A DNA stretch of 64,000 nt from Methanococcus maripaludis (GTDB taxonomy: Archaea > AGJL01 > Methanococci > Methanococcales > Methanococcaceae), in NCBI RefSeq assembly GCF_013760955.1, contig NZ_JACDUL010000002.1, forward strand, positions 194,719 through 258,718, in the 5' to 3' direction. Made by a program: the position numbers and the translations under genes. The notes under the pieces are model-generated. The model had not been told where the DNA came from. It made no database searches and saw only the letters and a program-made list of their open reading frames with translations. Below, in pieces: positions 23,638 to 63,425 of the stretch. Each line of letters begins with the position of its first letter. The first letter of the stretch is position 1.

Positions 23638-23647
23638 GGTGTTTTTT

Positions 23648-24088
23648 ATGGATGACGTTCCAAAAGTAGTAGTTTTCAAATTAGCAAGCAATGAATACTG
23701 TTTAAGAGTAACAGGAGTAAGAGAAGTTTTAAAATTACAAGATATTACATCTATTCCAAATACTCCAAGCTATATTGTCGGAGTTACGAACATTCGTGGC
23801 GAAATCATGCCAATCATCGATCTTAGGAAGAAATTAAATCTTTTTGAGGATGTTGCTGATGAAGACAGTGAAAAGCTCGTAATGGTTGTAGAAATCGATG
23901 GTGTACCAATTGGAATTTTAGTTGATTCTGTAAGTGACGTAATGCAAATTTCATCCGAACAGATTGAAGACATTGAAGGAATCAAGAAAAATGCAAGCGG
24001 AGAATATATTGAAGGTATTGCAAAAATTGGAAATAGATTAATCATTATTCTTGACATTAAAAATTTAATTGACCCACAAGAATTCTAA
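23648..24088 (+). CDS. cheW: Chemotaxis adaptor protein CheW
   Basis: Couples the receptor to the histidine kinase CheA. A 146-residue protein that is one CheW domain (two SH3-like barrels): VVFKLASNEYCLRVTGVREV, VVGVTNIRGEIMPIIDLRKK-type core (IVGVTNIRGEIMPIIDL), VDGVPIGILVDSVSDVMQI and IGNRLIIILDIKNL. The ATG at 23648 follows GAGGTG. It is the first gene of the plus-strand che arm, 42 bases before cheB. Confidence 0.95.
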   Translation: MDDVPKVVVFKLASNEYCLRVTGVREVLKLQDITSIPNTPSYIVGVTNIRGEIMPIIDLRKKLNLFEDVADEDSEKLVMVVEIDGVPIGILVDSVSDVMQISSEQIEDIEGIKKNASGEYIEGIAKIGNRLIIILDIKNLIDPQEF

Positions 24089-24130: not shown

Positions 24131-25231
24131 ATGAGTAAAATAAAAGTTCTAGTTGTAGATGATTCGGCATTTATGAGAAAGGTTCTAGAAGACATCCTAA
24201 AAGCAGATGACGAAATCGAAGTCGTTGCTACTGCAAGAGATGGAAAAGAAGCAATAGAACTTGCAAAAAAATTAGAACCAAATGTAATCACCATGGATGT
24301 CGAAATGCCAATTATGAATGGAATTGATGCTACAAAACAGATCATGGAACATAAACCTACCCCAATACTCATGCTTTCCGCAATAACTAAACAAGGGTCA
24401 GAAGCTACGTTAAAAGCACTTGATAATGGTGCGGTTGATTTTATAGAAAAGCCTTCAGGTTCTGTTTCACTTGACATCAGAACTATTGGGGAAAATATAA
24501 TAAAAAAAGTAAAAGCCGCTTCAAAATCTACTGCAAGAATTAAATCATCAAGAATTTTCGAAACTATCAAAAAAGAAGAAAAATCCGACAATAATGCACT
24601 TGAAAAAACGATTGAAAAGATTTCGGGACTTTCTCCTGAAAAATTAAACAACATGGCCATAATGATAGGCTCCTCAACAGGTGGCCCGCCAGTAGTTTCA
24701 GAAATAATTTCAAATATTCCAAAAAATATGCCTCCAATATTTATAGTACAGCACATGCCAAGGGGATTTACTCGTGTTTTTGCTGAAAGAATGAATAATA
24801 ATTCATCAATTACAGTTAAAGAAGCAGAACACGGTGAACTTGTAAAACCCGATCATGCTTACGTCGCACCAGGAGACTCACAAATGATTCTTCAAAAAAG
24901 AGGCGGAAATATATACATTTTAATTGATGAAGATATGCCAAAAATCCACGGAACAAAACCCACTGTAGACGTAACTGCAGAATACGTTACAAAATACTAC
25001 GGTAAAAATACAATTGGCGTAATTCTAACGGGCATTGGTAGAGATGGTGCAAACGGAATGAAAATGGTCAAAAATAAAGGAGGATACACAATTGCACAAA
25101 ACCAGGAGACCTGTGTGATTTATGGCATGCCTAAAACTGCAATCGAAATGAATGTGGTTGATAAGGTGATGGATCCAACAAATATACCCGACGAAATCAT
25201 AAAATTCGCCAAAAAAATCGGGGGTCGATAA
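24131..25231 (+). CDS. cheB: Protein-glutamate methylesterase / response regulator CheB
   Basis: Removes methyl groups from receptors to adapt the signal. The receiver domain covers residues 1-125 with the phospho-acceptor D56 in ITMDVEMPIMNG, acidic pair DD near 10-11 and K at 107 in EKPSG. The esterase domain covers about 175-360 with S182 in MIGSSTGGPP, H208 in IVQHMPRGFT and the Asp in GIGRDGANGM. At 366 residues it is complete. The stop is one base from the cheA start, so the two are translationally coupled. With CheA truncated, phospho-activation of CheB should fail. Confidence 0.95.
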   Translation: MSKIKVLVVDDSAFMRKVLEDILKADDEIEVVATARDGKEAIELAKKLEPNVITMDVEMPIMNGIDATKQIMEHKPTPILMLSAITKQGSEATLKALDNGAVDFIEKPSGSVSLDIRTIGENIIKKVKAASKSTARIKSSRIFETIKKEEKSDNNALEKTIEKISGLSPEKLNNMAIMIGSSTGGPPVVSEIISNIPKNMPPIFIVQHMPRGFTRVFAERMNNNSSITVKEAEHGELVKPDHAYVAPGDSQMILQKRGGNIYILIDEDMPKIHGTKPTVDVTAEYVTKYYGKNTIGVILTGIGRDGANGMKMVKNKGGYTIAQNQETCVIYGMPKTAIEMNVVDKVMDPTNIPDEIIKFAKKIGGR

Positions 25232-25232: not shown

Positions 25233-27992
25233 ATGGACGACATGGAACAATATAAGGAACTATTCATGACTGAAGCTGAAGAGCATTTGCAATCATTAAA
25301 TCAAAATATGGTCGAACTTGAAAACTGCCCTGAAGACTCTGAAAGAATCATCAATATGATCTTTAGATCTGCACACACATTGAAAGGGTCAGCAAGAACA
25401 CTTGGATTTGAACATATCTCCTCACTAACTCACCATATGGAAGATATTTTAGACTACATCAGAGATGGAAGAATTAAAGTAAATCCTGAAATAGTTGACT
25501 TACTCTTTAAATGTCTTGATGCCCTTGAAACCATGGTTTCAGAAGTTGGCGATGGTGAAGATACAACAAGTGTTGATGTAGATTCCCTCGTTGAAATAAT
25601 AAAATCTGTCAAAAATAAGTATCTTTCAGGTGAATATTCAGAAGAAGATTTTTCAGAGGATATTGAAATTACTGAAGAATTAGTCGAAGAAGAATCCGTT
25701 AAAAATATTTCATCAAATTCAAGTTCCATAAAATTAGCAAATGAATCGACCACTGTATTTATCAAAGAAAACTCCAGCGCTTCAGCTGAAAAACCGGAAA
25801 ATTTGGACAGTGTTTTAAATCAAATGCACGAATCAGCTTCTGCACTTTTGACAATCCTTGATGCCCTCGAATACACTGAATTAAAAGATACTTTAAAAAA
25901 TATCGATGAACTCGCAACAGGGCTGCTAAATGAAACCGTTGCAGTAACCGAAAATTCACTTGCAGTGCTCAAATCAGCACTTTTGGCAATGGAACAGATT
26001 GCAAAAGTAATTGAAACTGGATCCGATCCGAAAAACGATTATTCAGAATTAAATGAAAAAATTTCATCCACATTATCTGAAACTGTTGGCGAATCAGTAG
26101 AGGATAAAGAAATCATTTTGGATCATACAGTATTTGATTTAGAGGAAGTTTCAGATAAATTAATTTCTGAAATAAATGAAAATAAAAAAATTTACCACGT
26201 AAAAGCAAAAGTTGTGGATGATTGTTTATTAAAAGCAGTTCGGTTAACAATGGTTCTTTCCAAATTAAAAGAAATCGGGGAAGTGATTTTATCAATTCCC
26301 TCAGAAGCTGAACTTTTATCAAGCGGTTCTGGAGAACTAGATGTTTTGGTTTCAACAGATTTGGACGAAATAGATATTTCAAATTCAGTTTGTGAAATGG
26401 AATATGTTTTATCGGCAGGACTTGAACTTAAATTTAAAAATACTTCGTCAAAAGAAGTACCTAATATAGCAAAACCAAAAACTCAAGCTAAATGCTACAG
26501 TAGTCCCGGGCAGTACAAAATCGACATTAAAATCGATGAAGAATGTCTCTTAAAAGCAGTTCGTGCATACATGGTACTTAAAGACTTAAAAGAAAAAGGT
26601 AATATTTTGGAAACTGAACCTTCCGAAAGTAAAATTCAGGAAGGGAATCTTGGTGGAAACACAGTTACAATATATTACGATACTGACGAGTCTGAAGATG
26701 ACATTAAAGAAATAATTTTAAAAACTCCCGAAATAACCGGATTTTCAATCGAACCGATACACCAAGATATTGAAATTTCAGAACAACCCGAAAAAGCTAA
26801 ATCTGCTGAGGGTAATGGTTCAAAAAAACAGGCCGATAATTCTGCATCCAAAAAATCACAGACTGTTAGGGTGAATATTGAAAAACTTGACAAACTGATG
26901 AACTTGGTTGGTGAAGTTGTAATAAACAGGGCAAACTTTACACAGATTGCTACAAAATACGATTTAAAAGAACTCCACAATGCTGTTGGAAGACTCAACA
27001 TGCTTGCAACAGAACTTCAGGAAGAAGTAATGGGCATGAGAATGATCCCTGTTGCATTCGTATTCAATAGATTTCCAAGAACTGTTAGAGATACTGCAAA
27101 AGCACTCAGTAAAGAAATCGACTTTGAAATCGAAGGTTCCGAAATTGAACTTGATAGAACAGTTCTCGACGAACTTGCAGAACCATTAACGCACCTCATT
27201 AGAAATTCTCTTGATCACGGTATAGAACACTCAGACGAGAGAATAAAATTGGGAAAACCTGAAAAAGGAATTTTAAAACTAATTGCTACAAGAGAAAGAG
27301 ATAGGGTAAATATTGTCATTAAAGACGATGGTAAAGGAATAGATCCAGAAGCTATGCGTAAAAAAGTAGTTAAAAAAGGACTCTATTCAAAAGAATAGGC
27401 TGAAAAATTAACTGACAATGAAGCCATAAATGTTATATTCCTACCAGGATTTAGTACTGCTGAAGTTGTATCCGATGTTTCTGGAAGGGGCGTTGGAATG
27501 GATGTAGTAAGATCAAAAATCGAATCTCTTGGAGGCAGTGTATCAGTACATTCCGAAGTTGGAAAAGGAACTGAAATAACACTCCATCTTCCACTAACAA
27601 TGGCAATCATACAAACGCTTTTAGTAAGGCTAAAAGAACAGATCTATGCACTCCCACTCACAAGTGTTTTGGATGTAATTTCAGTTGAAAAAGATCAGAT
27701 CAAAAATTTGGAAGGTCAGGAAGCAATAATATACAGAAACCACATCCTTCCAGTAATATGGTTAAAAGATGCACTGAACACATATGAAGTTTCCGAACCT
27801 GAAAACTTGTATGTGGTAGTTGTTGAGAAAAATAAAGGAAAAGTGGGGGTCATTCTTGATGAGGTTATCGGAAGAGATGAAATCGTTGTAAAACCACTCA
27901 CAGGAATACTCAAAAACATTAATGGACTTGCAGGAGCCACTATATTGGGGGACGGCCGTGTAGCGTTAATATTAGACTTGAACAACATCTAG
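25233..27992 (+). pseudogene. cheA: Chemotaxis histidine kinase CheA, interrupted by an in-frame TAG at codon 722
   Basis: Autophosphorylating kinase of the taxis system, 919 sense codons if read through. Order: P1 HPt domain with His48 in SAHTLKGSA; acidic linker; a helical stretch near 190-260; two P2-like domains (about 320-400 and 427-510); P3 dimerisation helices (about 545-605); the P4 ATPase with N-box HLIRNSLDHGIE near 654 and G1 box DDGKGID near 700; then TAG at 27396-27398; then the G2 box GRGVGMDVV near 751 and the CheW-like P5. Both sides are in one frame and well conserved, so one nonsense change explains the break. The first part (25233-27398, 721 residues) lacks G2 and P5. An ATG at 27498 could restart a P5-only fragment. 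A sequencing error is possible. Confidence 0.9.
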
Positions 27993-28002: not shown

Positions 28003-28467
28003 ATGGTTTTGAAGGTAAAAATGGGTGATATCGGGGTTGCTAAAAGCCCCGAATCAATTGAAACCCTATTAGGATCTTGTGTAGCTATTATACTTTATGA
28101 CCGAGGTAAAAAAGTTGGTGGTGTTGCCCATGTGATGCTCCCCAAATCAAGAAATACTGCAGAAAGAACCCCTGGAAAATATGCAAATACTGCAATTCCA
28201 GAATTAATAGATAGACTTACTAAACTAGGCGCTAGAAAAGATAAATTAACTGCTAAACTTGCAGGTGGTGCTGCAATGTTTAAATGCAATTCAAATACGA
28301 TAGATGTAGGTAAAAAAAATATCGAAGCTTCGAAAGAAGAAGTTCGAAAAGTAGGCTTAAGAATAGCATCTGAAGACCTTGGTGGTGACACAGGCCGAAC
28401 TATAACATTGTCACTTAAAGATGGCAGTGTTTTGGTTAGAAAAGGTGCCGAACTCAAAGTCATATAA
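28003..28467 (+). CDS. cheD: Chemoreceptor glutamine deamidase CheD
   Basis: Deamidates receptor glutamines and binds CheC. A 154-residue protein with the catalytic Cys in LGSCVAIIL (C27), the His in GGVAHVMLP (H44) and the Thr in [11 protein letters not shown], the triad known for CheD, plus KLAGGAAMF. The ATG at 28003 is 10 bases after the cheA end with GGACGAT upstream. Intact, in contrast to cheA just before it. Confidence 0.95.
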
Positions 28468-28483
28468 AGATACGGTGATGAGC

Positions 28484-29887
28484 ATGAAAACACAAAAACC
28501 ATATATCCCAATACTTGTTACAGCGATTTTATCGTCTGCAATTATTTTCGTTAGTGCATACGTCTTGATGATGACATCAATGTTTGATTTAAAAATATTA
28601 TTTGTATTGTTTATTGTTTCGGCAGTGATTTCAACAGTGGTTGGATATACAATTCTTAAAAAAACATGTCTCGACAAAGTGGATAAGTTTTTAGCATCTT
28701 CTTCAAAAATAATTGGAAAAGATTATGATCATTGCGATGAAGAAATGTTTAATACAGTAATATCAGACTTTGAAAAGATAAAAAAAGACGAAGATTTTTT
28801 AAAAATTTACAAAAAAGAAGTTACAAATACCTTTGGAGAACTCCACACAATATTTAAAAGTTTAGAAAACGGAGATTTCACAATAAGAGCTGATACTAAC
28901 CGAAAACATAATGCATTGCAGGTAACAACCAACAATGCAATTGTAAACGTTGCTACAATGGTAAACGACCTTAAAAAACAGGTCGCATACTTAAATTCTG
29001 AACTTTTAAAAGCAAAAGAAGACCTTGTAAGAGCTGAGGAAACTTCAGAACAGGTCGCAGATGCAGCAAGCCAGGTTGCAACCGCAGCAGCAGACCAGTC
29101 TGCAAAATTGCAGGACGTATCTGACCAGCTCGAAGCAACATCTGAAATTACAACTGCAGTAACCAGTGCAGCTGAAGATACTGTTGTTGCAGCATCTGAA
29201 ATTGAAGAAAACTCTGAAATCGGAGTTAAAAAAGTTGAAAATGCAATTGAAACAATGCAAGGTATCACAAATGTTATTGAAAACCTTGGAAAAGCAATTC
29301 AAGAACTCGGTGACGAATCCAAAAAAATTAACGAAGTTACAGTTTTAATTAAAGATGTTGCAGAACAGACTGGATTACTTGCTTTAAATGCATCAATTGA
29401 AGCAGCACGTGCTGGAGATGCGGGAAAAGGGTTCGCAGTTGTTGCAAGTGAAATCAAGTCACTCGCAGAAGAAATTAAAAAATCCGTTGAAGATATCAAC
29501 AGAACAATTAACGGCGTAAACAAAAAAGTTGAAGCTACAATAGACCTTGGAATTTCCGGAAGAGATGAAGTTGATAAGGGAGTTATTGCAATTGATGAAG
29601 TTAACGGTGCTTTCTTAAAAATCAGAGAAAGTGTAGAAACTACCTCTGAAAAAATAAATTCGATAAAAATTAATGCTGAAAAATCAGCAAGCAATGTAGA
29701 AAGTGCTCTTAGAAATGCACAAGATATTGCATCAATTTCTGAAGAATTTGCGGCAACTGCAGAAGAATTAACTGCGTCAGCTGAAGAACAGAGTAGAATC
29801 ATGAATGAAATCGATGATGCAATAGAAGAGATAACCTCAGCATCTGAAAAAATTTCTAACGATGTAAGTAAATTTAAAACACAATAA
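28484..29887 (+). CDS. Methyl-accepting chemotaxis protein with no extracellular sensor domain
   Basis: A 467-residue receptor. Two membrane helices lie at about residues 8-30 and 37-60 with a loop of only a few residues outside, so no periplasm-facing ligand domain exists. A short HAMP-like linker ([17 protein letters not shown] near residue 125) follows, then the long cytoplasmic coiled coil with the hairpin tip [20 protein letters not shown] and [15 protein letters not shown]. Sensing must happen in the membrane or cytoplasm. The start is the ATG at 28484 with GGTG 6 bases upstream; the ATG at 28478 is too close to that site. Last gene of the plus-strand che arm. Confidence 0.92.
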
Positions 29888-29935
29888 CTAAATTTAAAAA
29901 AATAATTTTTTAATTTATTTTTAATTTTTGATAAA
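29888..29935. terminator. Convergent T/A-rich terminator between mcp and cheR
   Basis: The two che arms meet here. The plus strand carries T runs of six, five and five, and the minus strand carries A-rich sequence that reads as short T runs in the other direction. The terminator for cheR may lie in the gap or just beyond. Confidence 0.45.
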
Positions 29936-30722
29936 TTCTTTCCCTGTGATTTGCAGGTTTGAATGCGTTTCTTGAATCCCCGTGAAGCATTTCTGTTTTT
30001 CCTAAAACTAAATACCCGTCATCAATTAATGCTTCGTGGAATTTCATAAATAATTTTTCCTGAATCTCTTTATCAAAATAAATTATAACGTTCCTACAAA
30101 GAACCATGTTCATATCGTTCATCGGCCCTTCTTTGATTAAATCGTGTTTTTTAAATTGAACCATTCTTTTTATTTCTTTTTTAATTTGGAGTTCATTATC
30201 ATTTAATTTATCAAAATATTTCTCGATAACATCCGCGTCCATATTCTTAAATTGTTTTAATATGTATTTTCCTTCTTTTGCTCGTTCCAAAATTTCTTTG
30301 TCGAGATCAGTTGCAGTAATTGATACTCTTAAAAATTTTTGATTATGTTTTTCCATTAATTCCTTTATCATAACTGCCAAACCGTACGGTTCTTCTCCTG
30401 AAGAACATCCTGCACTCCATATTCGTATTGTTCGAACCTTCCTATCAGTTACCATTTTTTCAAAAACGTTTCTAAGTTCGTTGTAAACTGTTCTATCTCT
30501 CCAAAACTCAGTTACATTTACAGTAAGCGTATTTTCGAGTTTTTCGTATTCTGAAGGGTTTTTTGTTAAGAATTCATAGTATTCTTTAAAATCTTTGCAC
30601 TTACAGAGTCTCATCCTAACTGAAACACGCCTTAAAATGTAAGTATCTTTGTACTGGTCCACCTGTATTTTCAATTTGGTACCGATGTCACGTTTAATTC
30701 TTTTAAAATACATATCTTCCAT
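29910..30722 (-). CDS. cheR: Chemotaxis protein methyltransferase CheR
   Basis: Transfers methyl from SAM to receptor glutamates. A 270-residue protein: the N-terminal helical domain (YILRRVSVRMRLCKCKDFKE), then the SAM fold with NVTEFWRD, IWSAGCSSGEEPYGLA, ITATDLDKEILERAKEG and MVLCRNVIIYFD. The last part GYLVLGKTEML is conserved too. The start ATG has GGTGAT in front. It is the last gene of the minus-strand arm, 63 bases after the second cheC. Confidence 0.96.
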   Translation of the reverse strand: MEDMYFKRIKRDIGTKLKIQVDQYKDTYILRRVSVRMRLCKCKDFKEYYEFLTKNPSEYEKLENTLTVNVTEFWRDRTVYNELRNVFEKMVTDRKVRTIRIWSAGCSSGEEPYGLAVMIKELMEKHNQKFLRVSITATDLDKEILERAKEGKYILKQFKNMDADVIEKYFDKLNDNELQIKKEIKRMVQFKKHDLIKEGPMNDMNMVLCRNVIIYFDKEIQEKLFMKFHEALIDDGYLVLGKTEMLHGDSRNAFKPANHRERIYQKLKIN

Positions 30723-30785: not shown

Positions 30786-31394
30786 TTATAATTTATCGAG
30801 GTTTTCAAGCTTTTCAGGATCTATTAATATAAAGATATTGCTTTTTATGGGGAATCTTCCAACAATGTCTATTTTATTGTCAAAAACGAGTGCGTTTTCA
30901 ATTCCTTTGTCAGCCATTTCTAAAACCAGGGATTCAACAATATTAAATCCACTATCTTTTGTAAACTCCGGAGTTGTAATGTTTATTTCGCTTTTGAGTG
31001 CATTTGCAAACACATTTAAAAATGAAGCCAAAACTACATTGGCAACCTCATTTAACACGGATTCTTCAATTTCCGCATAATCGGGCAGTTCTGTTTTATT
31101 AACGAGACCATCCCAAACAAGATCTAGTAACAGAAGTTTTTCAAGTTTTATTGAATCTTCTTCGTTTACCATCAAAACAGAAGTTCCTGAAAGAATTCCA
31201 TCAAAATTTATCCGGACTACCTTACAAGTTTCATCACTAAACTGTTCTGGAATGTATTCAACAGGTACAAATCTAAGTCCAGTAAAATGAATATCCGTAT
31301 CTTCACCAGTGAGTCCCGTAAATGCATTGGCAGTGTTTTCTGCCGCATCTTTTCCGATATCAACTATTTTATTTATCGTTTCAATTACTCCCAC
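30786..31394 (-). CDS. cheC: CheY-P phosphatase CheC (second paralogue)
   Basis: A CheC-like protein of 202 residues. The CheC phosphatase motif S-X3-E-X2-N-X22-P is complete in one half: SVLNEVAN near residue 113 followed 22 residues later by the Pro of TTPEF. The matching N-terminal site (IVDIGKDAAENTANAF) has lost the Glu-Asn pattern, so only one active site remains. It starts with GTG behind GGTG. The paralogue lies just upstream. In other organisms CheD binds CheC and tunes this activity. Confidence 0.9.
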   Translation of the reverse strand: MGVIETINKIVDIGKDAAENTANAFTGLTGEDTDIHFTGLRFVPVEYIPEQFSDETCKVVRINFDGILSGTSVLMVNEEDSIKLEKLLLLDLVWDGLVNKTELPDYAEIEESVLNEVANVVLASFLNVFANALKSEINITTPEFTKDSGFNIVESLVLEMADKGIENALVFDNKIDIVGRFPIKSNIFILIDPEKLENLDKL

Positions 31395-31413: not shown

Positions 31414-32103
31414 TTAATTTAATTTTTCAAATAATTTATCGGTAGATTCGGGGTTCATTACAATATATACTTCAAAACCAGAGCCGATTCCTTTAGAAAA
31501 GAGTTCTGAGGTAAAAGTAAATAGTGTATCTTCAGAGTTTATTTCATAATTTTTTAATTCAGCTTCAATAAAATCGCCCAAATTTCCAGTAGAAAATTCT
31601 GGCGGGGTCATGTTAAGGGAGGTATTCATAAAATTTGCAATTGTATCAACGAATGCGGAAATTAAAAGATTACAGGTTTCATTTATTGCAGAAACTCTCA
31701 TTTCGCAGAACACTTCTTCAGAATCTCCTTCCATGCCCATTCCAACGAGCATTGAGTCAGCCATACTTTTTGCAGATTCTTCAGAAAAAATTAAAACTCC
31801 AGTTCCACAGATGTCCCCACTAAAATCGATTTTTGTAAAAACATTGCTTTCAGAGATATCTGCCATATTTTTAAAATCCTGTGCAGAATTAAGTTCTATT
31901 TTAAAAACTTTGACTTCGACACAGTCTCCACTCATTTCTTGGACAAAACTTGCAGCTTTTTCTGCAGCAGTTTTTCCAATATTTTCAAAAGCTGCGACAT
32001 CTTTTAAATCATAGTTATTTTTAACAACCATTGTTTCCACACTCGCTTCTTCGTCGACAATAATTTCAAGAAGTTCTTTCCATTCGTTTTCGGAAAACTT
32101 CAT
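31414..32103 (-). CDS. cheC: CheY-P phosphatase CheC (first paralogue)
   Basis: A 229-residue CheC. The motif S-X3-E-X2-N-X22-P is present: SAINETCN near residue 143, then the Pro of NMTPPEF. The N-terminal counterpart AAFENIGKTAAEKAASF keeps NIG but lacks the Glu three residues before Asn, so this half is probably inactive. The ATG at 32103 has a run of six G 7 bases upstream; an in-frame TTG at 32118 would overlap it. It lies between cheY and the second cheC, and the two paralogues share only limited similarity. Confidence 0.9.
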   Translation of the reverse strand: MKFSENEWKELLEIIVDEEASVETMVVKNNYDLKDVAAFENIGKTAAEKAASFVQEMSGDCVEVKVFKIELNSAQDFKNMADISESNVFTKIDFSGDICGTGVLIFSEESAKSMADSMLVGMGMEGDSEEVFCEMRVSAINETCNLLISAFVDTIANFMNTSLNMTPPEFSTGNLGDFIEAELKNYEINSEDTLFTFTSELFSKGIGSGFEVYIVMNPESTDKLFEKLN

Positions 32104-32118
32104 GGTAAAACCCCCCAA

Positions 32119-32490
32119 TTATGGAAACAATTTGTTAAACTGCTCTAAGATTTTTGGTGCCTGAAATGGTTTTACGATGTAACCATCTGCACCCGCATTT
32201 ACAGCGTCGATCATTTTTTGCTCCTGATCTACTGACGTACACATTACGATTTTGATTTCAGGAGTTTTTTCTTTTATTGCTTTTGTAGCAGTTATACCAT
32301 CAGTTTCGGGCATTACAATATCCATACTGATTAAATCTGGCTGTAATTCTTCTGCCATTTTAATTGCTTCTGCACCGTTAGAAGCTTCACCGATAACCAC
32401 GTATTTGTTTGTGGTTGTCAAAATCCTCTTTAAAATGTTTCTCATGAATGCAGAATCATCCACAATCATTGTTTTTACTATACTTGCCAT
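32119..32490 (-). CDS. cheY: Chemotaxis response regulator CheY
   Basis: A single-domain receiver of 123 residues that passes the CheA signal to the archaellum motor through CheF. Acidic pocket DD11-12, phospho-acceptor D57 in SMDIVMPETDG, the conserved Thr or Ser in MCTSVD and Lys in IVKPFQAP are all present. The ATG follows GAGGTG. It is placed between cheF (upstream) and cheC, so output and signal removal are co-expressed. Intact, but without an active CheA it should stay unphosphorylated. Confidence 0.96.
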   Translation of the reverse strand: MASIVKTMIVDDSAFMRNILKRILTTTNKYVVIGEASNGAEAIKMAEELQPDLISMDIVMPETDGITATKAIKEKTPEIKIVMCTSVDQEQKMIDAVNAGADGYIVKPFQAPKILEQFNKLFP

Positions 32491-32573: not shown

Positions 32574-33623
32574 TTAAAAGTTCGTAATAATGAAGTTTGT
32601 GACCGCCCTTCCTTTTTCAGTTAAATCTGCTTCTTTCCTAATCCTTATGAGGTCTAAAAATCCCCTGTCGATCAATTTTTCAAGAATTCTTTCAACTTCG
32701 TCAATATCCATACCCATCATTCCGGGAAGTTCAAGTGACGTAATTCCAGTATATATTGCAGCCAGCACTTCTTGCTCTTCAGGAGTTAACTGGTCAACCT
32801 CGTTTTTCAATTTATCCCCACTCCAGCTTTCGACAGCAATTTCAGAATCTAGGTCGTCTTCGGATTTTGGGAGTAAACTTTTAACCGTATTGTGATATTT
32901 TGTTAATTTTGAAATATACCTTAAAACATAAAGCATTTTGGTTGAAGGGATGTGTATATAGGAATTTACTGTTTCTCCGCCCCGCAACTGTTTTATTTCA
33001 AGTACATCTTTGTCTTCATCATCAATTTTCTTTTTTTCAAGTGAAATTGATTCAATATTATTAAATAAATCATAAACTTTCGGTTTGTCGCCCGAAGTTA
33101 CCGCAGCTGCGAGAACCATTTCTTCGATAACAGATACTCCTCTTTTAACAGGTTTTTTAGCAAAAACAAGGTATCCATCTTCCCACTGTGCATCTACATC
33201 AACAGAACCGCCAACAATTCTTGCATACTGTAATTTCATTTCTTTTTTATTCAATAACTGCTGGAATAATTTTTTTAAGAATGCATTTATTGTGGGTTCA
33301 CCATAAATTGAAGCTTCTGGTGCATAGCCGATGCTAAATTTATCTTCATCAGGAGGACTTAATCTAAAAGAACCATAAATTGAAATATCATCTAAATTGT
33401 TTTTTGCAATTTCGAGTGCTTTTCTTGGAAGTTCAAATCCGATATCGTCAATCTGATCAAAACTTGCCTCAATTTTCTTGTTTTCAAAAATAAACTCTAA
33501 AGAATCTTCATACAACTCTATTTTTAAGTTTCTCCATTTTGTGAACGGATCCCTTAATGTATAGGGGGTTGCAATAATACCTTTACCATTAAACGTTGCT
33601 ACCAGTTTAGACTTGGCCACCAT
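32574..33623 (-). CDS. cheF: Archaeal taxis protein CheF
   Basis: The archaea-specific adaptor (DUF439) that links CheY-P with the archaellum motor switch. It has 349 residues: a mixed N-terminal part (VATFNGKGIIATPYTLRDPF), the core GGSVDVDAQWEDGYLVFAKK, and a C-terminal winged helix from about residue 280 (LTPEEQEVLAAIYTGITSLE and IDEVERILEKLIDRGFLDLI). Start ATG at 33623; a GTG one codon later has better spacing from GGTG. First gene of the minus-strand arm. Archaellum genes are not in the window. Confidence 0.93.
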   Translation of the reverse strand: MVAKSKLVATFNGKGIIATPYTLRDPFTKWRNLKIELYEDSLEFIFENKKIEASFDQIDDIGFELPRKALEIAKNNLDDISIYGSFRLSPPDEDKFSIGYAPEASIYGEPTINAFLKKLFQQLLNKKEMKLQYARIVGGSVDVDAQWEDGYLVFAKKPVKRGVSVIEEMVLAAAVTSGDKPKVYDLFNNIESISLEKKKIDDEDKDVLEIKQLRGGETVNSYIHIPSTKMLYVLRYISKLTKYHNTVKSLLPKSEDDLDSEIAVESWSGDKLKNEVDQLTPEEQEVLAAIYTGITSLELPGMMGMDIDEVERILEKLIDRGFLDLIRIRKEADLTEKGRAVTNFIITNF

Positions 33624-51960: not shown

Positions 51961-52093
51961 GGTAGCTGTGTCAGATAGTGCTGATGTCTTCATCCCAAAA
52001 TCATGAAAATCACGAATTTAGTCAGCGGGGGTAACTGTCATCATACAACGATGGCAAACTGAAAAATTCACCATATGCTACCGTGGTTACCAC
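51961..52093 (-). ncRNA. Structured RNA element in the presumed cobJ leader (strand not certain)
   Basis: Read on the minus strand it lies between a TATA box (52121-52131) and cobJ. The outer stem GGTAGC/GCTACC (52082-52077 with 51966-51961) closes a multi-helix structure: a hairpin at 52056-52036 (6 of 7 bp on minus, 7 of 7 on plus), GCTGA/TCAGC (52026-52022 with 51984-51980) enclosing a 6-bp hairpin (52015-52001, perfect with one G-U on minus only), and a GATG/CATC hairpin (51994-51983) that competes with it. A GTGG/CCAC hairpin precedes it. A CCCCCGC run has faint similarity to cobalamin riboswitches, but the B12 box is absent. It may be a cis-regulator or an independent small RNA. Confidence 0.4.
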
Positions 52094-52120
52094 TTTGATG
52101 TAAATTTAGTATGGCGTTAA

Positions 52121-52131
52121 TATTTATATAA
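52121..52131 (-). promoter_or_regulatory. TATA box upstream of the structured element and cobJ
   Basis: On the minus strand TTATATAAATA is followed about 25 bases later by position 52100, just before the structured element. This gives cobJ a leader of about 210 nt. Confidence 0.5.
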
Positions 52132-52168
52132 TTAATCTTATTTTCAAAAAATTCAAAAATAAAAAAAG

Positions 52169-52642
52169 TTATAATTCAATCAAATCGTTTTTTATTGCAG
52201 TTTTCAAAAAGATATCGTTGCTTATTTTAATTATATTGGTATGTGGAACAAGATATGCAGTAACCATGTCCCATTTATCGTCATCTTTTAACTCCTGTCT
52301 ACAATCACTTAACCTGTATTTAATATTTCCATCCAAACTTGCCCATACTGAAAATTTTAAATAATTTTTAGGAGATAGTTCCGAAATATCACGATTTTTA
52401 TACTTTTTTAAAAGTGCTACTGTGTTTTTCTCTTCGTAACTTAAATCCATCATATCTATTTCTTTTTCTATAAGCCGAAAGACCAGCATATTATGTATTG
52501 TGAGTTTTGTATAATTGTAAGGATCGATATCATATCCTTTTTTTTCAAATTCATTGTATTTTATAAAATATTTCAATATTGCAGATGAAATATTTCTTGC
52601 AGTTGAATAACATTCTTCAAATATTATTGTTTGGTCTTCCAT
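52169..52642 (-). CDS. Hypothetical protein (157 residues)
   Basis: Not recognised. A soluble acidic helical protein starting MEDQTIIFEECYSTARNISS with several aromatic and charged stretches (KNYLKFSVWASLDGNIKYRL). No Cys cluster, signal peptide or membrane segment. There is no strong ribosome site in front of the ATG (AGGGATAGAGCATGG, with AGGGAT 6 bases earlier, is acceptable). It stands alone between two long non-coding stretches, and no neighbour suggests a function. Confidence 0.6.
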   Translation of the reverse strand: MEDQTIIFEECYSTARNISSAILKYFIKYNEFEKKGYDIDPYNYTKLTIHNMLVFRLIEKEIDMMDLSYEEKNTVALLKKYKNRDISELSPKNYLKFSVWASLDGNIKYRLSDCRQELKDDDKWDMVTAYLVPHTNIIKISNDIFLKTAIKNDLIEL

Positions 52643-53128
52643 GCTCTATCCCTATGCCCAAATTGCCAAATAATTTAATAATTTTAGTCTTTCGATAAAC
52701 ATTATATTTATTATTTTGGATATTTTTAAACAGCACCTATTACCAATTAATTTACAAAAGTAAAATAACCTACACTATAAGAAAAAATTAATCGATTTAT
52801 TTATATATTAATTTTATTTTATGATCAAAAATAGTCAAATTTGGGCTAAGTATTTATACTATAATAAATTATTATAAAAACACGTCATAAATCTTGTCAT
52901 TTTTGATATGGGTTGCTGACGAACAGTGTGTATGATTATCAATCATAAATTATGCTTTAAAAAAACATTTAAAATCCATATCTAAAAATTACTTTTTCAA
53001 CCCCCGAATATTTGAGTATAATTCATGATTTTTCTAAAAATTTTTTAAATGCCCCCAAATTTTTATTTTTTTAAGCTGATTTGTAATTTTAAAACCGTTT
53101 TTCCAAATTTTATTCTAAAAGCTGAATC

Positions 53129-53139
53129 TTTATATATTA
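53129..53139 (+). promoter_or_regulatory. TATA box of sucD
   Basis: CTTTATATATTATA lies about 75 bases before the sucD start. Transcription would begin near 53157, inside the dyad listed next, and leave a leader of about 55 bases. Confidence 0.55.
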
Positions 53140-53143
53140 TAGG

Positions 53144-53161
53144 GTAATACTTGGATATTAC
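53144..53161 (+). promoter_or_regulatory. Dyad over the predicted sucD transcription start (possible operator)
   Basis: GTAATA and TATTAC form a perfect 6-bp inverted repeat with 6 bases between them, between the TATA box and the predicted start. This position is typical for a repressor operator in archaea. The sequence does not match the NrpR site (GGAA-N6-TTCC), so the regulator is unknown. Confidence 0.4.
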
Positions 53162-53211
53162 GGATTTTTATATTCATTGTTATTCACTCTTTCATGTAAT
53201 GAGGTGAAATA

Positions 53212-54075
53212 TTGATTTTACTAGACGAAAACACAAGAGCAATTGTTCAAGGAATTACTGGAAATCAAGGAAAGTTCCACACAAAAAATATGCTTGAATG
53301 CAATACAAATATTGTAGCAGGCGTAACTCCTGGAAAAGGTGGCCAGGATGTTTACGGAATTCCTGTTTATGATACTGTTTTGGAAACTGTTGAAAAATAC
53401 GATGCGAATGCATCTTTGATATTCATACCTGCACCATTTGTAAAAGATGCAGCATATGAAGCAATAGATGCAGGAATTGACCTCGTTACAATCATTACTG
53501 AACACATACCAATTCAGGATTCAATGGATATTGTAGCATACGGAAAAAAACACGGCGTAAATATAATAGGACCAAATACTCCAGGATTAGCATCCCCCAA
53601 AGTAGGAAAACTTGGAATTATCCCGATGAGTATATTAAAAGAAGGAAACATTGGAATGGTATCAAGAAGCGGTACCTTAACTTACGAAATTGCAAGCCAG
53701 CTCACTTCATCAAATTACGGTCAATCCTCATGTGTCGGAATTGGTGGAGACCCGATAACTGGTTTGAGATACATTGAAGTTTTAGAAATGTTTGAAAAAG
53801 ACAGCGAAACTGATGCAGTTGTAATGGTTGGAGAAATCGGTGGAAATGCTGAAGAAAATGCAGCTGAAAAAATGATTTCAAAAATGAAAAAACCAGTAAT
53901 TTCATATATTGCAGGACAGTCTGCACCCGAAGGAAAAAGAATGGGTCACGCTGGTGCAATTATCGAAAAAGGGGTTGGAACTGCAAAAAGTAAAATGGAA
54001 GCACTTGAAAATGCTGGTGCCCATGTTGCAAAGCGAATTTCAGATATTCCACTATTATTAAAAGAAATTATTTAA
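53212..54075 (+). CDS. sucD: Succinyl-CoA synthetase (ADP-forming) alpha subunit
   Basis: Forms succinyl-CoA from succinate, CoA and ATP in the incomplete reductive citrate cycle of methanogens. A 287-residue protein: the CoA-binding domain [15 protein letters not shown] near residue 10, [19 protein letters not shown], then the phospho-His region and the C-terminal [13 protein letters not shown]-type motif ([10 protein letters not shown]), with His as the phosphorylated residue. It starts with TTG behind GAGGTGAAAT. The beta subunit (sucC) is elsewhere in the genome. topA follows 47 bases later. Confidence 0.94.
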
Positions 54076-54122
54076 ACTGCTTTTTTCAATTATTTTATTA
54101 TTAATTTAAAACGTGAAAAAAT

Positions 54123-56567
54123 ATGACTGGACTAATTATCTGTGAGAAACCAAACGTTGCTAAAAAAATTGCAGAAGCTCTTGGAAAACCAAAGAAAAAA
54201 TCCCATAATTCTGTGCCATATTATGAAGTGGAACGAAGTGGGGAAAACGTAATTGTAGCTTCAGCAGTAGGTCACCTCTACACGCTCCAAGAAAAAACCA
54301 AAACCAAGTTTGGAGACTACCCTGTTTATGATATAGATTGGGTTCCAGCATCCACTCTCGATGAAAAAAAATATATTCAAAAATACATCGATGCACTGAA
54401 AAAAGTTTCAAAAGAAGCTAACAAGTTTTACGTTGCAACGGACTGGGATATAGAAGGAGAATTAATTGGATACCACGCATTAAATTTCTCATGTGGACAA
54501 AAAAACGCTCACAGATTAAGATTTTCAAGTTTAACAAAAAAAGAAATTGTAAAAGCTTATGAAACTCCGAATGAAATAGATTTTGGGCTCGTTGATGCAG
54601 GAGACAGTAGACACAAAATCGACTGGTATTTTGGTATAAACGTTTCAAGAGCACTCATGCAGGCCGTAAGTTCTGTTAAACGATGGAAAACCCTCAGTAC
54701 AGGTAGGGTTCAAGGTCCAGCACTTGCTTTTTTAGTAGATAAAGAAATGGAAATTAAAAATTTCGTTCCGACACCATACTGGGTGCTTGAAGCTCTTTTG
54801 GATAATGAATTAATTGCAATTCATGAACTTGAAAAATTCTGGGATGAAGAACAGGCGAATGAAGCTTTTGAAAAAGTAAAAGGCCAAAAGGAAGCTACTG
54901 TTTCAGACGTTAAAAAAACCATGAAAAGCATTCCTCCAAATCCGCCTTTCGATTTAGGTGCACTTCAAAGAGAAGCACACAACATGTTTAGATTTTCACC
55001 TAAAAAAACACAGGAAATTGCACAAAAACTCTATGAAAAAGGATACTGTTCATATCCAAGAACGAGTTCCCAAAAACTTCCTGATGATAAAGCGTACATG
55101 GACGAAATATTGAAAAATCTTTCAAAAAATAAAAATTACAAGCCATACATTGAAAGAATTTTAAGCGAAAACAGAAAACCAATTTCAGGTAAAAAGGACG
55201 ATCCTGCGCACCCTGCGGTACACGCAGTAGACGTTCCAAAAGAACACCTGCCTGATGATGAGTTAAAATTGTATGAACTAATTGCAAGAAGGACTATTGC
55301 TCTTTACTGGGATAATACTGAAAGGGAATATTCAAAAATTAATCTCGATATAAACGGTGAACCATTCAAATTAAGCGGTTCGAGAACCGTTAAGGAAGGC
55401 TGGCACGAAATTTACTACTACACTAAATTTGATGAGATAGAACTTCCCGATTTAAAGGAAAAAGACGTAATAAATGTAAATAATATTAATTTCGAAGCAA
55501 AAGAGACGAAGCCCCCAAAAAGATACACAATGGCTTCAATTATCAAGGAACTCGAAAAAAGAAAACTCGGAACAAAAGCAACAAGGGCGGACATTCTTGA
55601 AAAACTGACCAAAAGAGGTTACGTGATTGAAGATGGTTCTTTAACGGTTACCGACCTTGGAATCGGAGTTACCGAAACTTTGAGAAAGTACTGTCCCGAA
55701 ATTGTTGAAGAAACCCTTACAAGAGATCTTGAAGATAAATTGGAACTTATTCAGGATAAAAAAATTAAAAAAGAAGATGTCATAACAGAAACACAAAACA
55801 AGCTTACCAAAATCCTTGGAGAATTCCGTTTAAAAGAAAAAGAAATTGGAAATGAACTTGTAGATAAACTCGATTCGACAAACCGATCTTTACAGATAAT
55901 TGGGAAGTGTAAATGTGGTGGTGACCTGATTATCATCCGTACAAAAGGCAAAAAAAGATTTGTTGGATGCAGCAATTACCCAGACTGTGATGTTACATTC
56001 CCACTACCTCAAAAAGGAAGAATTAAAGTTTTAAATGAAGTCTGTGAAACATGCCATAACCCAATAATTGGACTTGATAGGGTAAAAATTTGTGTAAATC
56101 CTGATTGTACCACAAGAATTTCAGAAGAAGATAAAAAAGAAATTGAAAAAGCAGAAAAAGAAGAAAAAATATGTCCAAAATGTGGTGGTAAGCTTTTAAT
56201 CAAAAAAGGCCCTTACGGCGTATTCAGGGGCTGTGAAAATTACCCAAAATGTAAATACACGGAAAAATTAAACGGGGAATCCAATGAAAAAGAAATCGTT
56301 GGAAAATGTCCAAAATGTGGAAGCGACTTATTTAAAAGAAGAGGCAGATTTGGGGAATTTATCGGATGTAGTAATTACCCAAAATGCAGGCACACTGAAA
56401 AAATAGAAAAGAAAAAAGACGATAACGCAGATGGAACTAAAGCAGAAAAAAATGAAGAACCAAAACCAAAAACCACTAAAAAATCAGCTCCAAAAAAGAC
56501 CGAAACTAAAAAAACTACCAAATCGACTGCTAAAAAAACAACTGCAAAGAAAACCACTAAAAAATGA
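54123..56567 (+). CDS. topA: DNA topoisomerase I (type IA)
   Basis: Relaxes negative supercoils. An 814-residue protein: the Toprim domain (ICEKPNVAKKIAEALG at the N-terminus; DWDIEGELIG near residue 108), the central domains, and the active-site Tyr311 in CSYPRTSS. The C-terminal part carries four zinc fingers of the CX2C...CX5-6C kind between about residues 595 and 755 (CKCGGDLI, CETCHNPI, CPKCGGKL, CPKCGSDL). The last 50 residues are a Lys-Thr-rich basic tail with KKTT repeats. The tail is of low complexity and may bind DNA. Start ATG follows CGTGA. Confidence 0.95.
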   Translation: MTGLIICEKPNVAKKIAEALGKPKKKSHNSVPYYEVERSGENVIVASAVGHLYTLQEKTKTKFGDYPVYDIDWVPASTLDEKKYIQKYIDALKKVSKEANKFYVATDWDIEGELIGYHALNFSCGQKNAHRLRFSSLTKKEIVKAYETPNEIDFGLVDAGDSRHKIDWYFGINVSRALMQAVSSVKRWKTLSTGRVQGPALAFLVDKEMEIKNFVPTPYWVLEALLDNELIAIHELEKFWDEEQANEAFEKVKGQKEATVSDVKKTMKSIPPNPPFDLGALQREAHNMFRFSPKKTQEIAQKLYEKGYCSYPRTSSQKLPDDKAYMDEILKNLSKNKNYKPYIERILSENRKPISGKKDDPAHPAVHAVDVPKEHLPDDELKLYELIARRTIALYWDNTEREYSKINLDINGEPFKLSGSRTVKEGWHEIYYYTKFDEIELPDLKEKDVINVNNINFEAKETKPPKRYTMASIIKELEKRKLGTKATRADILEKLTKRGYVIEDGSLTVTDLGIGVTETLRKYCPEIVEETLTRDLEDKLELIQDKKIKKEDVITETQNKLTKILGEFRLKEKEIGNELVDKLDSTNRSLQIIGKCKCGGDLIIIRTKGKKRFVGCSNYPDCDVTFPLPQKGRIKVLNEVCETCHNPIIGLDRVKICVNPDCTTRISEEDKKEIEKAEKEEKICPKCGGKLLIKKGPYGVFRGCENYPKCKYTEKLNGESNEKEIVGKCPKCGSDLFKRRGRFGEFIGCSNYPKCRHTEKIEKKKDDNADGTKAEKNEEPKPKTTKKSAPKKTETKKTTKSTAKKTTAKKTTKK

Positions 56568-56602
56568 GTTAAATATTAAAAATTAAAAAAGTTTAAAAAA
56601 TA

Positions 56603-57508
56603 TTATTCTTTTTGAATACTACTTAAAGCACCGGTAAATGCAGTTACCCCCTCACCAACTGCTTTTGAAACCTGTAAAATTCCGCCGGTAACATCCCCGC
56701 AAGCATAAATTCCATCAACACTTGTTTTACAGTTTTCATCGGTTTCAATGAATTTTCGCTTATTGAGTTTTATATCGCTTTTTTCTAAAAATTCAGTATT
56801 TGGGACGTACCCAAAGCTCATAAATATTCCCTCTGCAAAAATGGTTTTTTCTGTTCCGTTTATCGAAACCTTAACTCCTTCTGCTTTTTCGGTTCCAACA
56901 ATTTTAATCGGTTTTGCATTGAGGACTACTTCAAGATTAGTCATTAAGTTCATTCTCTCTTCCATTATCTTTTCGACAGCCCTTAATTCGGGCCTATCTG
57001 TAACTATCGTTATTTTCTTTGCAATATCCTTCAAATTATATGCAGCCATTATTGCAGAAGTGCCCCTTCCAAGCACAATTATTTCCTTGTTCAAGAAAAA
57101 GAATGCATCACACATTACGCAATAACAGACCCCTTTTCCCATATAGTCGTCTTCATTTAAACCCGGTTTTTTGTAGCGACTTCCTGATGCAATTATTATT
57201 GATTTTGCTTCGTACTTTTCGTTTTTAGTAATTACTTTGTAGGGTTTTGAAGAAGTGTCTATTTTTTCAACTTCTTCATGTATTATTGGAAGTTCGAAGT
57301 GTTTTGCATGTTCTGAAAATTTTTGGGCAAGTTCAAAACCTTTTATCGATTCAAAACCAGGATAATTTTCAACAATTCCGGCTTCTGCAATTTTTCCGCC
57401 TTCATTTTCTTTTTCAAGACATAATGTGCTTATTTTCGCCCGCATTGCATAAATTCCGGCAGTAAGTCCTGCTGGACCGCCCCCAATAATAATTAAATCA
57501 TATACCAT
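56603..57508 (-). CDS. trxB: Thioredoxin reductase
   Basis: A 301-residue FAD and NAD(P)H enzyme that reduces thioredoxin, or in methanogens the F420H2-linked relatives. The FAD motif GGGPAGL lies at residues 9-15, the redox pair C130 and C133 in [11 protein letters not shown], and the second dinucleotide-binding loop [13 protein letters not shown] near 148 (G-X-G-X2-A type). The C-terminal [19 protein letters not shown] is typical. The start is the ATG at 57508 with AGGTGG before it; an earlier ATG at 57529 includes that site. Its cofactor preference cannot be told from the sequence. Confidence 0.93.
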
Positions 57509-57594
57509 CAAACCACCTGTTGTTCTCAATAATAATCTCTCTTTAAAAATATATAAAATAGTATAAAATATTAAATATCGTCTTTAAATCAATT

Positions 57595-58599
57595 TTATGG
57601 TTTGAATGATTCGAGTTTTTCTTTTAAGTTGAAAACACAACCGCCAATGTTTTCATCGTTACAATTTATTTCGATTTTTGAGATATCTTCGGTATCTAAA
57701 AATGCAAAGATATTATATGCTGGACATCCGTACTGGGTTTTTTTGGTTTTTGGAAGGATTAATTTTTTTAATTCTTCTGAAATATCGTTATTTAAATATA
57801 ATATTTCATTTTCGATCCCTTCATTCATTACGGGTTTATTATTCAAAGTCTGAGGACTTCGTGTAACAATTCCTGATGAATTTGAAAGAACTGATGCGTA
57901 AATCATTCCTTCGATACTTGAGGCTGGTTCAATTATTGTTGATTCATCTTTTTTTATAAATTCGGGAAGAAATGATGCTTTAATTCTAAGCCATGTGCTT
58001 TCTTCAGGATTTTCTTTGATAATTTCTTTTGCTTTTTTTGATAAATTTGCATTATTCAAAAAATACGTTTTAAATTCCAAAGATAATTCTCTCAAACGTG
58101 CATCTTCCGAATTTTTATGGGTTAAATGGTAATTTACATTGTTTGAAAGCTTTTTATTATAATAATTTATAAGGTTCTCGGCTGCTTTTTTCGTAAGTTC
58201 TAATGCATCTTCAAAACTGATTTTCGTTTTATATTCGATTAATTTAGCGTATTCGTAAGTTTCAATTATAATATTAGTTTCAAAATCTTCATTGGTTTCA
58301 AGTGCAATTGAGACGTAATCTTCGAGGGTCGGGTGTCTCATTAGCATTTTTAAAACTTCTTCTTCAGTTGTATTATAATTTAAACTTTTGATTTCTTGAT
58401 GCGTTAAAAGACATGGGCCTGCTGTGATATTTTTTGAGATAAAGTCTCCCAAAATTCCAATAAATCTGTGAGATGAAAGTGCCGTAAATTCATTTGTATT
58501 AACTGGTTTTAAACCATATTTTTCGATTATACGGTTCCAGTACTGGGGATAAGTATGCTTAAAGTAAAGGTTTGTAAATTCTTTTTGACAAACCACCAA
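57595..58599 (-). CDS. Hypothetical protein (334 residues)
   Basis: Not recognised. A soluble, mostly helical protein with mixed charge. It has no nucleotide-binding motif, signal peptide or membrane segment. Cysteines near the ends (CQK, CLLTHQ, YGCPAYN, CNDENIGGC) are spaced too widely to identify a cluster, although CPAYNIFAFL near residue 294 and the final CNDENIGGC could form a metal or thiol site. It starts with TTG at 58599 (or the next codon, GTG) behind GGTGG. It is placed between trxB (same strand, downstream) and the divergent DUF2193 operon. Confidence 0.7.
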   Translation of the reverse strand: MVVCQKEFTNLYFKHTYPQYWNRIIEKYGLKPVNTNEFTALSSHRFIGILGDFISKNITAGPCLLTHQEIKSLNYNTTEEEVLKMLMRHPTLEDYVSIALETNEDFETNIIIETYEYAKLIEYKTKISFEDALELTKKAAENLINYYNKKLSNNVNYHLTHKNSEDARLRELSLEFKTYFLNNANLSKKAKEIIKENPEESTWLRIKASFLPEFIKKDESTIIEPASSIEGMIYASVLSNSSGIVTRSPQTLNNKPVMNEGIENEILYLNNDISEELKKLILPKTKKTQYGCPAYNIFAFLDTEDISKIEINCNDENIGGCVFNLKEKLESFKP

Positions 58600-58813
58600 A
58601 TTACCACCCGTGTAAATTCAGTTAATTCTGGGGCGAATTACTTTTAAATTTTTCCCATTGATTAAATATTGTTTATTGTAGTGTCTTAATATTACACTAC
58701 CATTATACTATATATGGTTTGCTGTTTTTTTGAAGAAAGAAAAATACGTTCAAAATAACGACTATATCAAAAAATACGAAAAATTATAAGTTTTTCTAGT
58801 TTATTTAAAAAAG

Positions 58814-58824
58814 CATATAATAGG
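58814..58824 (+). promoter_or_regulatory. TATA box of the DUF2193-DUF2180-MIP operon
   Basis: CATATAATAGG follows an A-rich stretch that could be a BRE. Transcription would begin near 58843, giving a leader of about 95 bases that includes the hairpin at 58854-58903. Confidence 0.5.
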
Positions 58825-58853
58825 CTATTTTCATAAAATTTTATGGCCACTAA

Positions 58854-58903
58854 TTAGGCGGAGGGGGCTTTAAATTTAGTTATCACCCCCATTTAACGTC
58901 TAA
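58854..58903 (+). promoter_or_regulatory. Hairpin leader with a ribosome-site mimic, upstream of DUF2193
   Basis: TTAGGCG (58854-58860) pairs with CGTCTAA (58897-58903) over 7 bp with one G-U. Inside, GGGGG (58863-58867) pairs with CCCCC (58886-58890), closing an 18-base loop. The true ribosome site (GAGGGGGAT, 58925-58933) repeats the GAGGGGG of the hairpin, so the CCCCC arm could pair with either. Such a fork would let the leader expose or hide the ribosome site. The ligand or factor is unknown. Confidence 0.45.
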
Positions 58904-58938
58904 GCCTCAAAATATCCAATCGATGAGGGGGATTTGAT

Positions 58939-60438
58939 ATGGAAGAAATATATTCAAAAATGGTTGATGAAGCAATGGCTGCACAATGGGCGGATGTTGA
59001 TATAATTAAGGAAAAGAGAGGGCATGAATTTAAGATAAAGCATGCAAAAGGATACGTAGATGTTGCAAACAAAATGGAAGCAGTTGGAAATCAGGACGCT
59101 TCCGTATTTAAACTACATAAAGATTCCATCAATGCACACTTTGATGTTTTATGTGATCTTACAAAAACAGTAAGACCCGAAGATGACCCATTCGTTGAAC
59201 ATTATCAAACTCCAGCAATACTCGAAATAATGTACAAAGAAGATCCAGAATTTAGAAAAAGCGTTGAAAAATTTATTCAGACTATTGAAAAGTCAGAAGC
59301 ACTTATCGGAAGAGAAGTCCTTCGAAGATATGGTGGTTTTTATGGGCCCACCTGCGTTGTGGACTTTGCATTAATTCCTGGAAGTACTAGTAACATCGTA
59401 AACAGGATTCTCAAAAACGTAGATATGCCCCTTGAACACAAACAAGCAATTTTAGCTTCAAAATCCTGGGGTATGAACACATCGTATGGTTTTGGAGAAA
59501 AATTCGCAAATGCGGTTGAAGCTGGAAAATCATTAACTGACGCCGTAAATGAAGAAATTGAAATGATAAAATTCATTTATGATAAACCAATTGAGGCTCA
59601 AGCAAAACTTATGGATGATTTTGGCCATGAAAGTTTTGATGTACAAAAATACATGGCAGAATACAAAAAGAAAATGAAATCTGCCGTACTTGCTGCAATG
59701 GAATCAGAAGTTCACTATGGAAACATTGTAACGCTTCCAGCATATTGTGTCGGAGATATTGCACATCACATTGCCCAATCGACATTTAACATGTGTAAAG
59801 ACGACGTTATAATGGCAATAATCGAATCCGTTTCAAATGTAATGGACAACACTTTGAGATCCAATGTAAAGAACTTTAAAAATGAATATGAGGTATTATC
59901 TCTTGCAACAGGATCAACTGCTGCTGCAACTGAATGTATACTCGAATTAGATGGATTTAATGCACCGACGGTTGTAGATCTACTCACCAAAAGATTCCAC
60001 AACTATGTACAGCTCTACCCCACCAGAGGCGCTGCTGCAGAACTTCACAATCATGATTTCATGGACATGATTTATAGGGGTTGGAAGTTAATCGATAAAG
60101 CTAGAAGAGTTAAAAATGGAAGCGATGCCCCAATAACTCCAAAAGTAGGTAATTTCAAAGTAGACCTCAATCCCATTTTCAAAAATCAGGTCATAATGAA
60201 TCCACAAAGGTATGCCTACCCGGCATGTGCAATAACTGTTAGATTTTCAGCATTGATGAGACTTGCAGACTATCCATGTCTTTTAACAAGTGAACCCATA
60301 ACTGCAACACTAATGACAAACATTATTGCACTACATAAAGAAACTCCGGGAGCACCTGCAAGAGTCTGTAAAGATTGTGCAACAGCCTGTTTAGTAGACT
60401 TCAGACACCAATACTGTCAGTATAAAGAAGCAATCTAA
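58939..60438 (+). CDS. DUF2193-family protein
   Basis: A 499-residue soluble protein found in methanogens, which I recognise as DUF2193. It is mostly helical. Conserved-looking stretches include RRYGGFYGPTCVVDFALIPG near residue 131, PAYCVGDIAHHIAQSTFNMC near 274 and YPTRGAAAELHNHDFMDMI near 360. At the end lies a Cys motif C477-X2-C480-X3-C484-X8-C493, which could bind zinc or an iron-sulfur cluster. Function unknown. It leads an operon with DUF2180 and an aquaporin, behind a structured leader and a GAGGGGGAT site. Confidence 0.8.
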   Translation: MEEIYSKMVDEAMAAQWADVDIIKEKRGHEFKIKHAKGYVDVANKMEAVGNQDASVFKLHKDSINAHFDVLCDLTKTVRPEDDPFVEHYQTPAILEIMYKEDPEFRKSVEKFIQTIEKSEALIGREVLRRYGGFYGPTCVVDFALIPGSTSNIVNRILKNVDMPLEHKQAILASKSWGMNTSYGFGEKFANAVEAGKSLTDAVNEEIEMIKFIYDKPIEAQAKLMDDFGHESFDVQKYMAEYKKKMKSAVLAAMESEVHYGNIVTLPAYCVGDIAHHIAQSTFNMCKDDVIMAIIESVSNVMDNTLRSNVKNFKNEYEVLSLATGSTAAATECILELDGFNAPTVVDLLTKRFHNYVQLYPTRGAAAELHNHDFMDMIYRGWKLIDKARRVKNGSDAPITPKVGNFKVDLNPIFKNQVIMNPQRYAYPACAITVRFSALMRLADYPCLLTSEPITATLMTNIIALHKETPGAPARVCKDCATACLVDFRHQYCQYKEAI

Positions 60439-60470
60439 CTAACTATTCTTCATTTTAAAGGAGGGGGAAT

Positions 60471-60686
60471 ATGAAGTGTTATCTATGTAAATTAGAAGGA
60501 AAAGATACAGATGCAGTTGCTTCGTGTATCGTTTGTGGAATGGGAGTTTGTATGAATCACGTTGTACGTGAAGAAGTTGACCAGTGGGAAGGTGGCTATC
60601 CATTCCCGGCTACAAAATTAAAAAAAACTATTCCAAGAATGCTCTGTATGCCTTGCTATAATGCACTTCAGGAGGGAAAAAAATGA
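60471..60686 (+). CDS. DUF2180-family small zinc-binding protein
   Basis: A 71-residue protein with C3, C6, C19, C22, C27, H30, C59 and C62, enough ligands for two zinc sites in a treble-clef or B-box-like fold. I recognise it as DUF2180. It contains DQWEGGYPFPATKLKKTIPR. It probably helps or senses, rather than catalyses. It has a strong GGAGGGGG site, 32 bases after the DUF2193 gene. Its stop overlaps the aquaporin start (ATGA), which couples their translation. Confidence 0.8.
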   Translation: MKCYLCKLEGKDTDAVASCIVCGMGVCMNHVVREEVDQWEGGYPFPATKLKKTIPRMLCMPCYNALQEGKK

Positions 60687-61402: not shown

Positions 61403-61531
61403 GGATAAATACCTCTTTATTTTTTTGAAAAATTCTAAAATTTAAAAAAATTATTATGTATTTTAGATAATTTAAAAAGTATTAATATTTTGAATAACAA
61501 TATATTATTACCATATACCGGGGGCCTAATT

Positions 61532-61789
61532 ATGGGAGCTATTTCAGAATATTTTGAGATTAAAAATGAAATTGGGGAATTAAAAGAGGAAGTTAGTAAA
61601 AAAATCAATGATTCGAATGAATTTGCAAACTCCAGATCTGAATCCATGCGGCATATTAATAAAAAAATAATTTCAAAAAAGAAAAGATTAAAAAACGCTG
61701 AAAATCGAATTATTATATATTATATATTCCCTTTGTTTATGATTACCATAATTTTAGCCTATTTTTACTTGAGGCTGAATTTTCTATAA
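61532..61789 (+). CDS. Small membrane-anchored helical protein (85 residues)
   Basis: Not recognised. A basic, helical N-terminal part (residues 1-60; KNEIGELKEEVSKKINDSNE and SKKKRLKNAENR) is followed by one hydrophobic segment, IIIYYIFPLFMITIILAYFY, at about 60-80. This would be a C-terminal membrane anchor with the basic part in the cytoplasm. The ATG at 61532 has GGGGG 10 bases earlier. It is separated from the aquaporin gene by 130 bases and probably has its own promoter. It could be a small stress or regulatory membrane protein, but this is only a guess. Confidence 0.65.
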   Translation: MGAISEYFEIKNEIGELKEEVSKKINDSNEFANSRSESMRHINKKIISKKKRLKNAENRIIIYYIFPLFMITIILAYFYLRLNFL

Positions 61790-61837
61790 TATTTATTTAA
61801 TCTAAAAATCTTTTAAAATCAAAAAATAAAAAAGAAT

Positions 61838-62416: not shown

Positions 62417-62481
62417 GTTTTCACCAGTTATTCTAATACTTGCAGTATGGCCGTATTACTTTTTATAAGTTTTTATTAATT

Positions 62482-63201: not shown

Positions 63202-63425
63202 GATTTTTCCCTTTTCTTTAAATTTTATATAATACTGAGATTTAAGTTCAATTTTATATATAAAATTTGATATTTAATGCTAAAAACTTCCAAACATTAA
63301 TTTATCGAATAAATTTTAAAATAAATACTTATAAAAGAAATATAAAGGTATATTAAAATATAATATTATGACTATTCTTAAAATTCATGTTTTAAATGAT
63401 TTTAAAGTAAAATAAGAGCGAAAAT

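Follow-up and report, generated by a model that had tools for sequence, protein, structure and literature searches.

Does the strain of Methanococcus maripaludis represented by this genome still possess a working chemotaxis kinase? The question arises from the window, the 64,000-nucleotide stretch of DNA that was analysed, in which the cheA reading frame, in phase with the ATG at 25233, meets a premature TAG at codon 722 (Table 1). Past this codon the frame stays open as far as a normal stop, also TAG, at 27990-27992, so that the read-through frame comprises 919 codons, identical in phase on both sides of the interruption. To judge from what it encodes, the 197-codon open frame that follows the stop cannot be a chance ORF, since it contains the conserved F and G2 boxes along with P5. 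The original prediction of an in-frame TAG within cheA was exact as to position, codon number and phase.

What is kept and what is lost was assessed with a Pfam scan of the 919-residue frame, an X being placed at the stop, which returned Hpt, two P2 stretches, H-kinase_dim, HATPase_c and CheW. The 721-residue product retains the P1 Hpt domain (PF01627, E = 5.3e-19, residues 7-99) and the P3 dimerisation domain (PF02895, E = 2.5e-17, residues 542-602). It matches the HATPase_c profile only at positions 4-55 of 111, the remainder of P4 lying after the TAG. No single product with a complete P4 ATPase (N, G1, F and G2 boxes) was found in the Pfam results, the F and G2 boxes being 3' of the stop, and the P5 CheW-like domain is similarly absent from the 721-residue product, the CheW match falling only in the frame beyond the TAG. 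Pfam results for the two halves thus agree with the predicted placement of the N and G1 boxes before the stop and of G2 and P5 after it, and with the predicted domain losses. With the rest of the ATPase and P5 gone, the kinase output of the truncated CheA should be nil. Nor was a second CheA found when the whole genome was searched for CheW domains: there are two such loci, cheW and the P5 of the interrupted gene, and hence only one CheA.

Table 1. Coordinates of cheA, its premature stop and the neighbouring che genes in the window.
Feature	Position	Strand	Evidence
cheW, whole	23639..24088	+	ORF, G002 comparison, Pfam
cheB, whole	24131..25231	+	ORF, G002 comparison, Pfam
5' part of cheA, 721 codons to TAG: P1 (Hpt), two P2 stretches, P3 (H-kinase_dim), first half of P4 (N and G1 boxes)	25233..27398	+	ORF; Pfam PF01627, PF07194, PF02895, half of PF02518
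Premature in-frame TAG, codon 722; Glu (GAA) in 6/6 other Methanococcus genomes	27396..27398	+	Sequence, relatives' alignment
3' part of cheA, in frame: F and G2 boxes of P4, P5 (CheW-like), to normal TAG	27399..27992	+	Homology, Pfam; 23 synonymous : 1 nonsynonymous lineage-specific changes
cheD, whole	28003..28467	+	ORF, G002 comparison, Pfam
Chemoreceptor (MCP) gene, whole; exact start uncertain	28421..29887	+	ORF, G002 comparison, Pfam
cheR, whole	29910..30722	-	ORF, G002 comparison, Pfam
cheC-like, whole	30786..31394	-	ORF, G002 comparison, Pfam
cheC/cheX-like, whole	31414..32118	-	ORF, G002 comparison, Pfam
cheY, whole	32119..32490	-	ORF, G002 comparison; named from sequence, without profile
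cheF-like (archaeal Che-archaellum adaptor), whole	32574..33623	-	ORF, G002 comparison; named from sequence, without profile

Where the original prediction had proposed comparison with the cheA of other M. maripaludis strains, the gene was compared here with that of six other Methanococcus genomes (G001-G006). A scan of named genomes added no Methanococcus strain to these, only relatives at a greater distance. All six have an uninterrupted cheA, the counterpart of this one in a comparable locus, and over the last 330 residues of the read-through frame (P4-P5) the proteins are 84-95% identical to the one encoded here; the premature TAG is what sets this genome apart. Intact orthologues in every Methanococcus relative and one disabling change here form the pattern of a recent pseudogene. 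In its DNA, the che region shares no more than 82-85% identity with the two nearest Methanococcus genomes compared.

At the position of the stop each of the six has the Glu codon GAA, while of two Methanothermococcus MAGs one shares GAA and the other has Asp (GAT). The likely ancestral GAA is two base changes away from TAG. The near relatives G001 and G002 share GAA at 71 sites, of which five are GAG here, and the route to the stop was probably a change of GAA to GAG followed by GAG to TAG. A single-base origin from a sense codon, as first proposed, would therefore hold for the last step, GAG to TAG, but not for the whole path from the codon seen in the relatives.

The age of the stop can be approached through changes specific to this lineage, taken as those where G001 and G002 agree and the present genome differs. 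After the stop there are 23 synonymous changes and a single nonsynonymous one, a conservative replacement of V by I; the 162 codons before it have 14 and one, respectively. Under neutrality 2.69 nonsynonymous changes are expected for each synonymous one, or about 62 replacements after the stop. Set against that expectation, the observed 23:1 means that disuse of cheA is not old. By our own estimate, based on a Poisson limit (about 4.7 of 62), the neutral share of the branch is less than roughly 8%, and the region beyond the stop was under selection for nearly all of it. The stop would then be either very recent or a wrong base in the assembly, and the ratio, fitting both equally, cannot separate the two.

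An error of base calling or assembly is thus the main rival to a genuine mutation: in the living strain the codon would still encode an amino acid, most simply as GAG, and cheA would be intact. Purifying selection undiminished through the post-stop region is just what an intact gene would produce, and the genome is represented by one draft assembly in seven contigs. One miscalled base would suffice were the true codon one base from TAG but, given GAA in the relatives, this requires GAG, or some other codon a single base from TAG, to have been present in the strain beforehand. Nor does the stop fall in a long homopolymer. Sequence quality was gauged more broadly by comparing stretches of the genome with G002, covering about 113 genes with a clear counterpart. 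Among these, cheA alone has a clear internal stop and no convincing frameshift was found, which argues against a low-quality assembly. An assembly so clean overall favours a real mutation, without proving one particular substitution, and we regard sequencing error as distinctly the less probable reading.

A few apparent lesions in the same comparison were rejected. The stop in the gene at 10.5-11.5 kb of the window is where that gene normally ends, four residues short of its G002 counterpart, and the case at 49.6 kb is only an upstream start difference; of two more in the left flank, one seems to be a spurious ORF where the DNA has diverged and the other a difference in start site. Separately, colinearity with G002 stops abruptly at around 52050, the window's genes from 52050 to 64000 having no counterpart in the G002 stretch.

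Could the stop be genuine and yet be read through at some level, so that full-length CheA is still made? The conserved frame downstream speaks for such readthrough. On the other hand, the PylS model TIGR02367 has no match above its cut-off in the genome, the best scoring 39.4 bits against 178.15. Its three weak matches probably represent other class II synthetases, since the model also hits 13 of 14 control genomes, exceeding the cut-off in only one. The tRNAs that RF00005 detected and ARAGORN typed, one of them intron-bearing, include none with a CTA anticodon (CUA tRNA), although this list is incomplete, lacking tRNA-Trp. TAG is, besides, an ordinary terminator here, ending 17 of 114 compared genes as well as cheA itself, and there is no conserved recoding site, all other Methanococcus having plain GAA. 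Programmed readthrough is unlikely given the lack of PylS at the curated cut-off, the absence of a CUA tRNA among those typed and the everyday use of TAG. Readthrough at any level strikes us as very improbable, and full-length CheA made by some unrecognised amber readthrough, in a Methanococcus without pyrrolysine machinery, as scarcely credible. The tRNA search also brought to light a tandem Asp-Lys-Asp-Lys cluster (L046:1403-2224; G000:C3, about 350.4-351.2 kb), suggesting duplication of a tRNA-Asp/tRNA-Lys pair.

The natural split CheAs known, such as Rhodobacter CheA3/CheA4, are cut between domains. A split kinase in which a fragment with P1-P3 and half of P4 acts together with a P5 fragment restarted at ATG 27498 is hardly believable here: that in-frame ATG does follow a purine-rich stretch, GGAAGGGG, and opens a 164-residue ORF containing the whole of P5, but the cut falls within the ATP-binding domain and separates the G1 box from the G2 box, the new start, about 100 bases past the stop, is itself within the G2 box and leaves out the F box, and all relatives retain a single gene.

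There remains the question of how far the damage extends beyond cheA. The nine other genes of the che region have no internal stops in comparison with G002 and, as predicted, are whole. The archaellum operon is likewise open throughout (G000:C1, about 476.8-487 kb), with four archaellins followed by FlaC to FlaJ, the Fla letters being assigned by reading the sequences rather than by profile. The suggestion that this might be a non-motile strain consequently finds no echo in the genes: with archaellin and FlaC-J-type genes all open and the neighbouring che genes whole, those examined predict cells which swim but are unable to steer. The first archaellin gene (L045:1264-2493; G000:C1, about 476763-477992) is unusual in encoding about 400 residues, nearly twice the usual length, through a long insert in its variable middle, both conserved ends being retained; the G002 archaellin is similar but shorter, a split match with a 337-residue frame.

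A recent nonsense mutation inactivating the only cheA of the genome, possibly derived from culture, is accordingly our best reading and one we consider probable; the recent loss originally proposed is supported by the intact relatives and by the pattern of changes after the stop. The ancestral GAA would have passed via GAG to TAG, ending translation at residue 721 and leaving a protein without half of its ATP-binding domain and without any P5. CheY would then go unphosphorylated, and the cell, though swimming, would neither switch in a directed way nor show taxis. Such a mutation may have spread through the culture that was sequenced, taxis plausibly being useless or costly in liquid culture.

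Two precedents bear comparison. When M. maripaludis was evolved in the laboratory, the regulator of its archaellum operon was repeatedly inactivated (MMP1718; PMC8319347). Both cases would involve the recent loss of a gene on which directed swimming depends, although the lesions there were mostly frameshifts in a regulator, whereas here a signalling kinase has acquired a nonsense codon and the archaellum genes are intact. In Halobacterium salinarum lacking cheA, as described in PMC2666748, the cells swim, their archaella turning but hardly switching, and they form no swarm rings and do not respond to stimuli. By analogy the same phenotype would be expected here, though that deletion was engineered in a different archaeon while the present truncation would be natural or culture-derived.

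Literature searches found no published report of the cheA stop in this genome. Gene damage of this sort is commonplace, offers nothing mechanistically new and leaves the understanding of chemotaxis and of decoding unchanged. If real, it would make the strain a cheA-null methanogen, natural or culture-derived, whose archaellum genes are whole and which could serve to test the role of taxis in methanococci; it would also be a warning that a sequenced strain may not be chemotactic.
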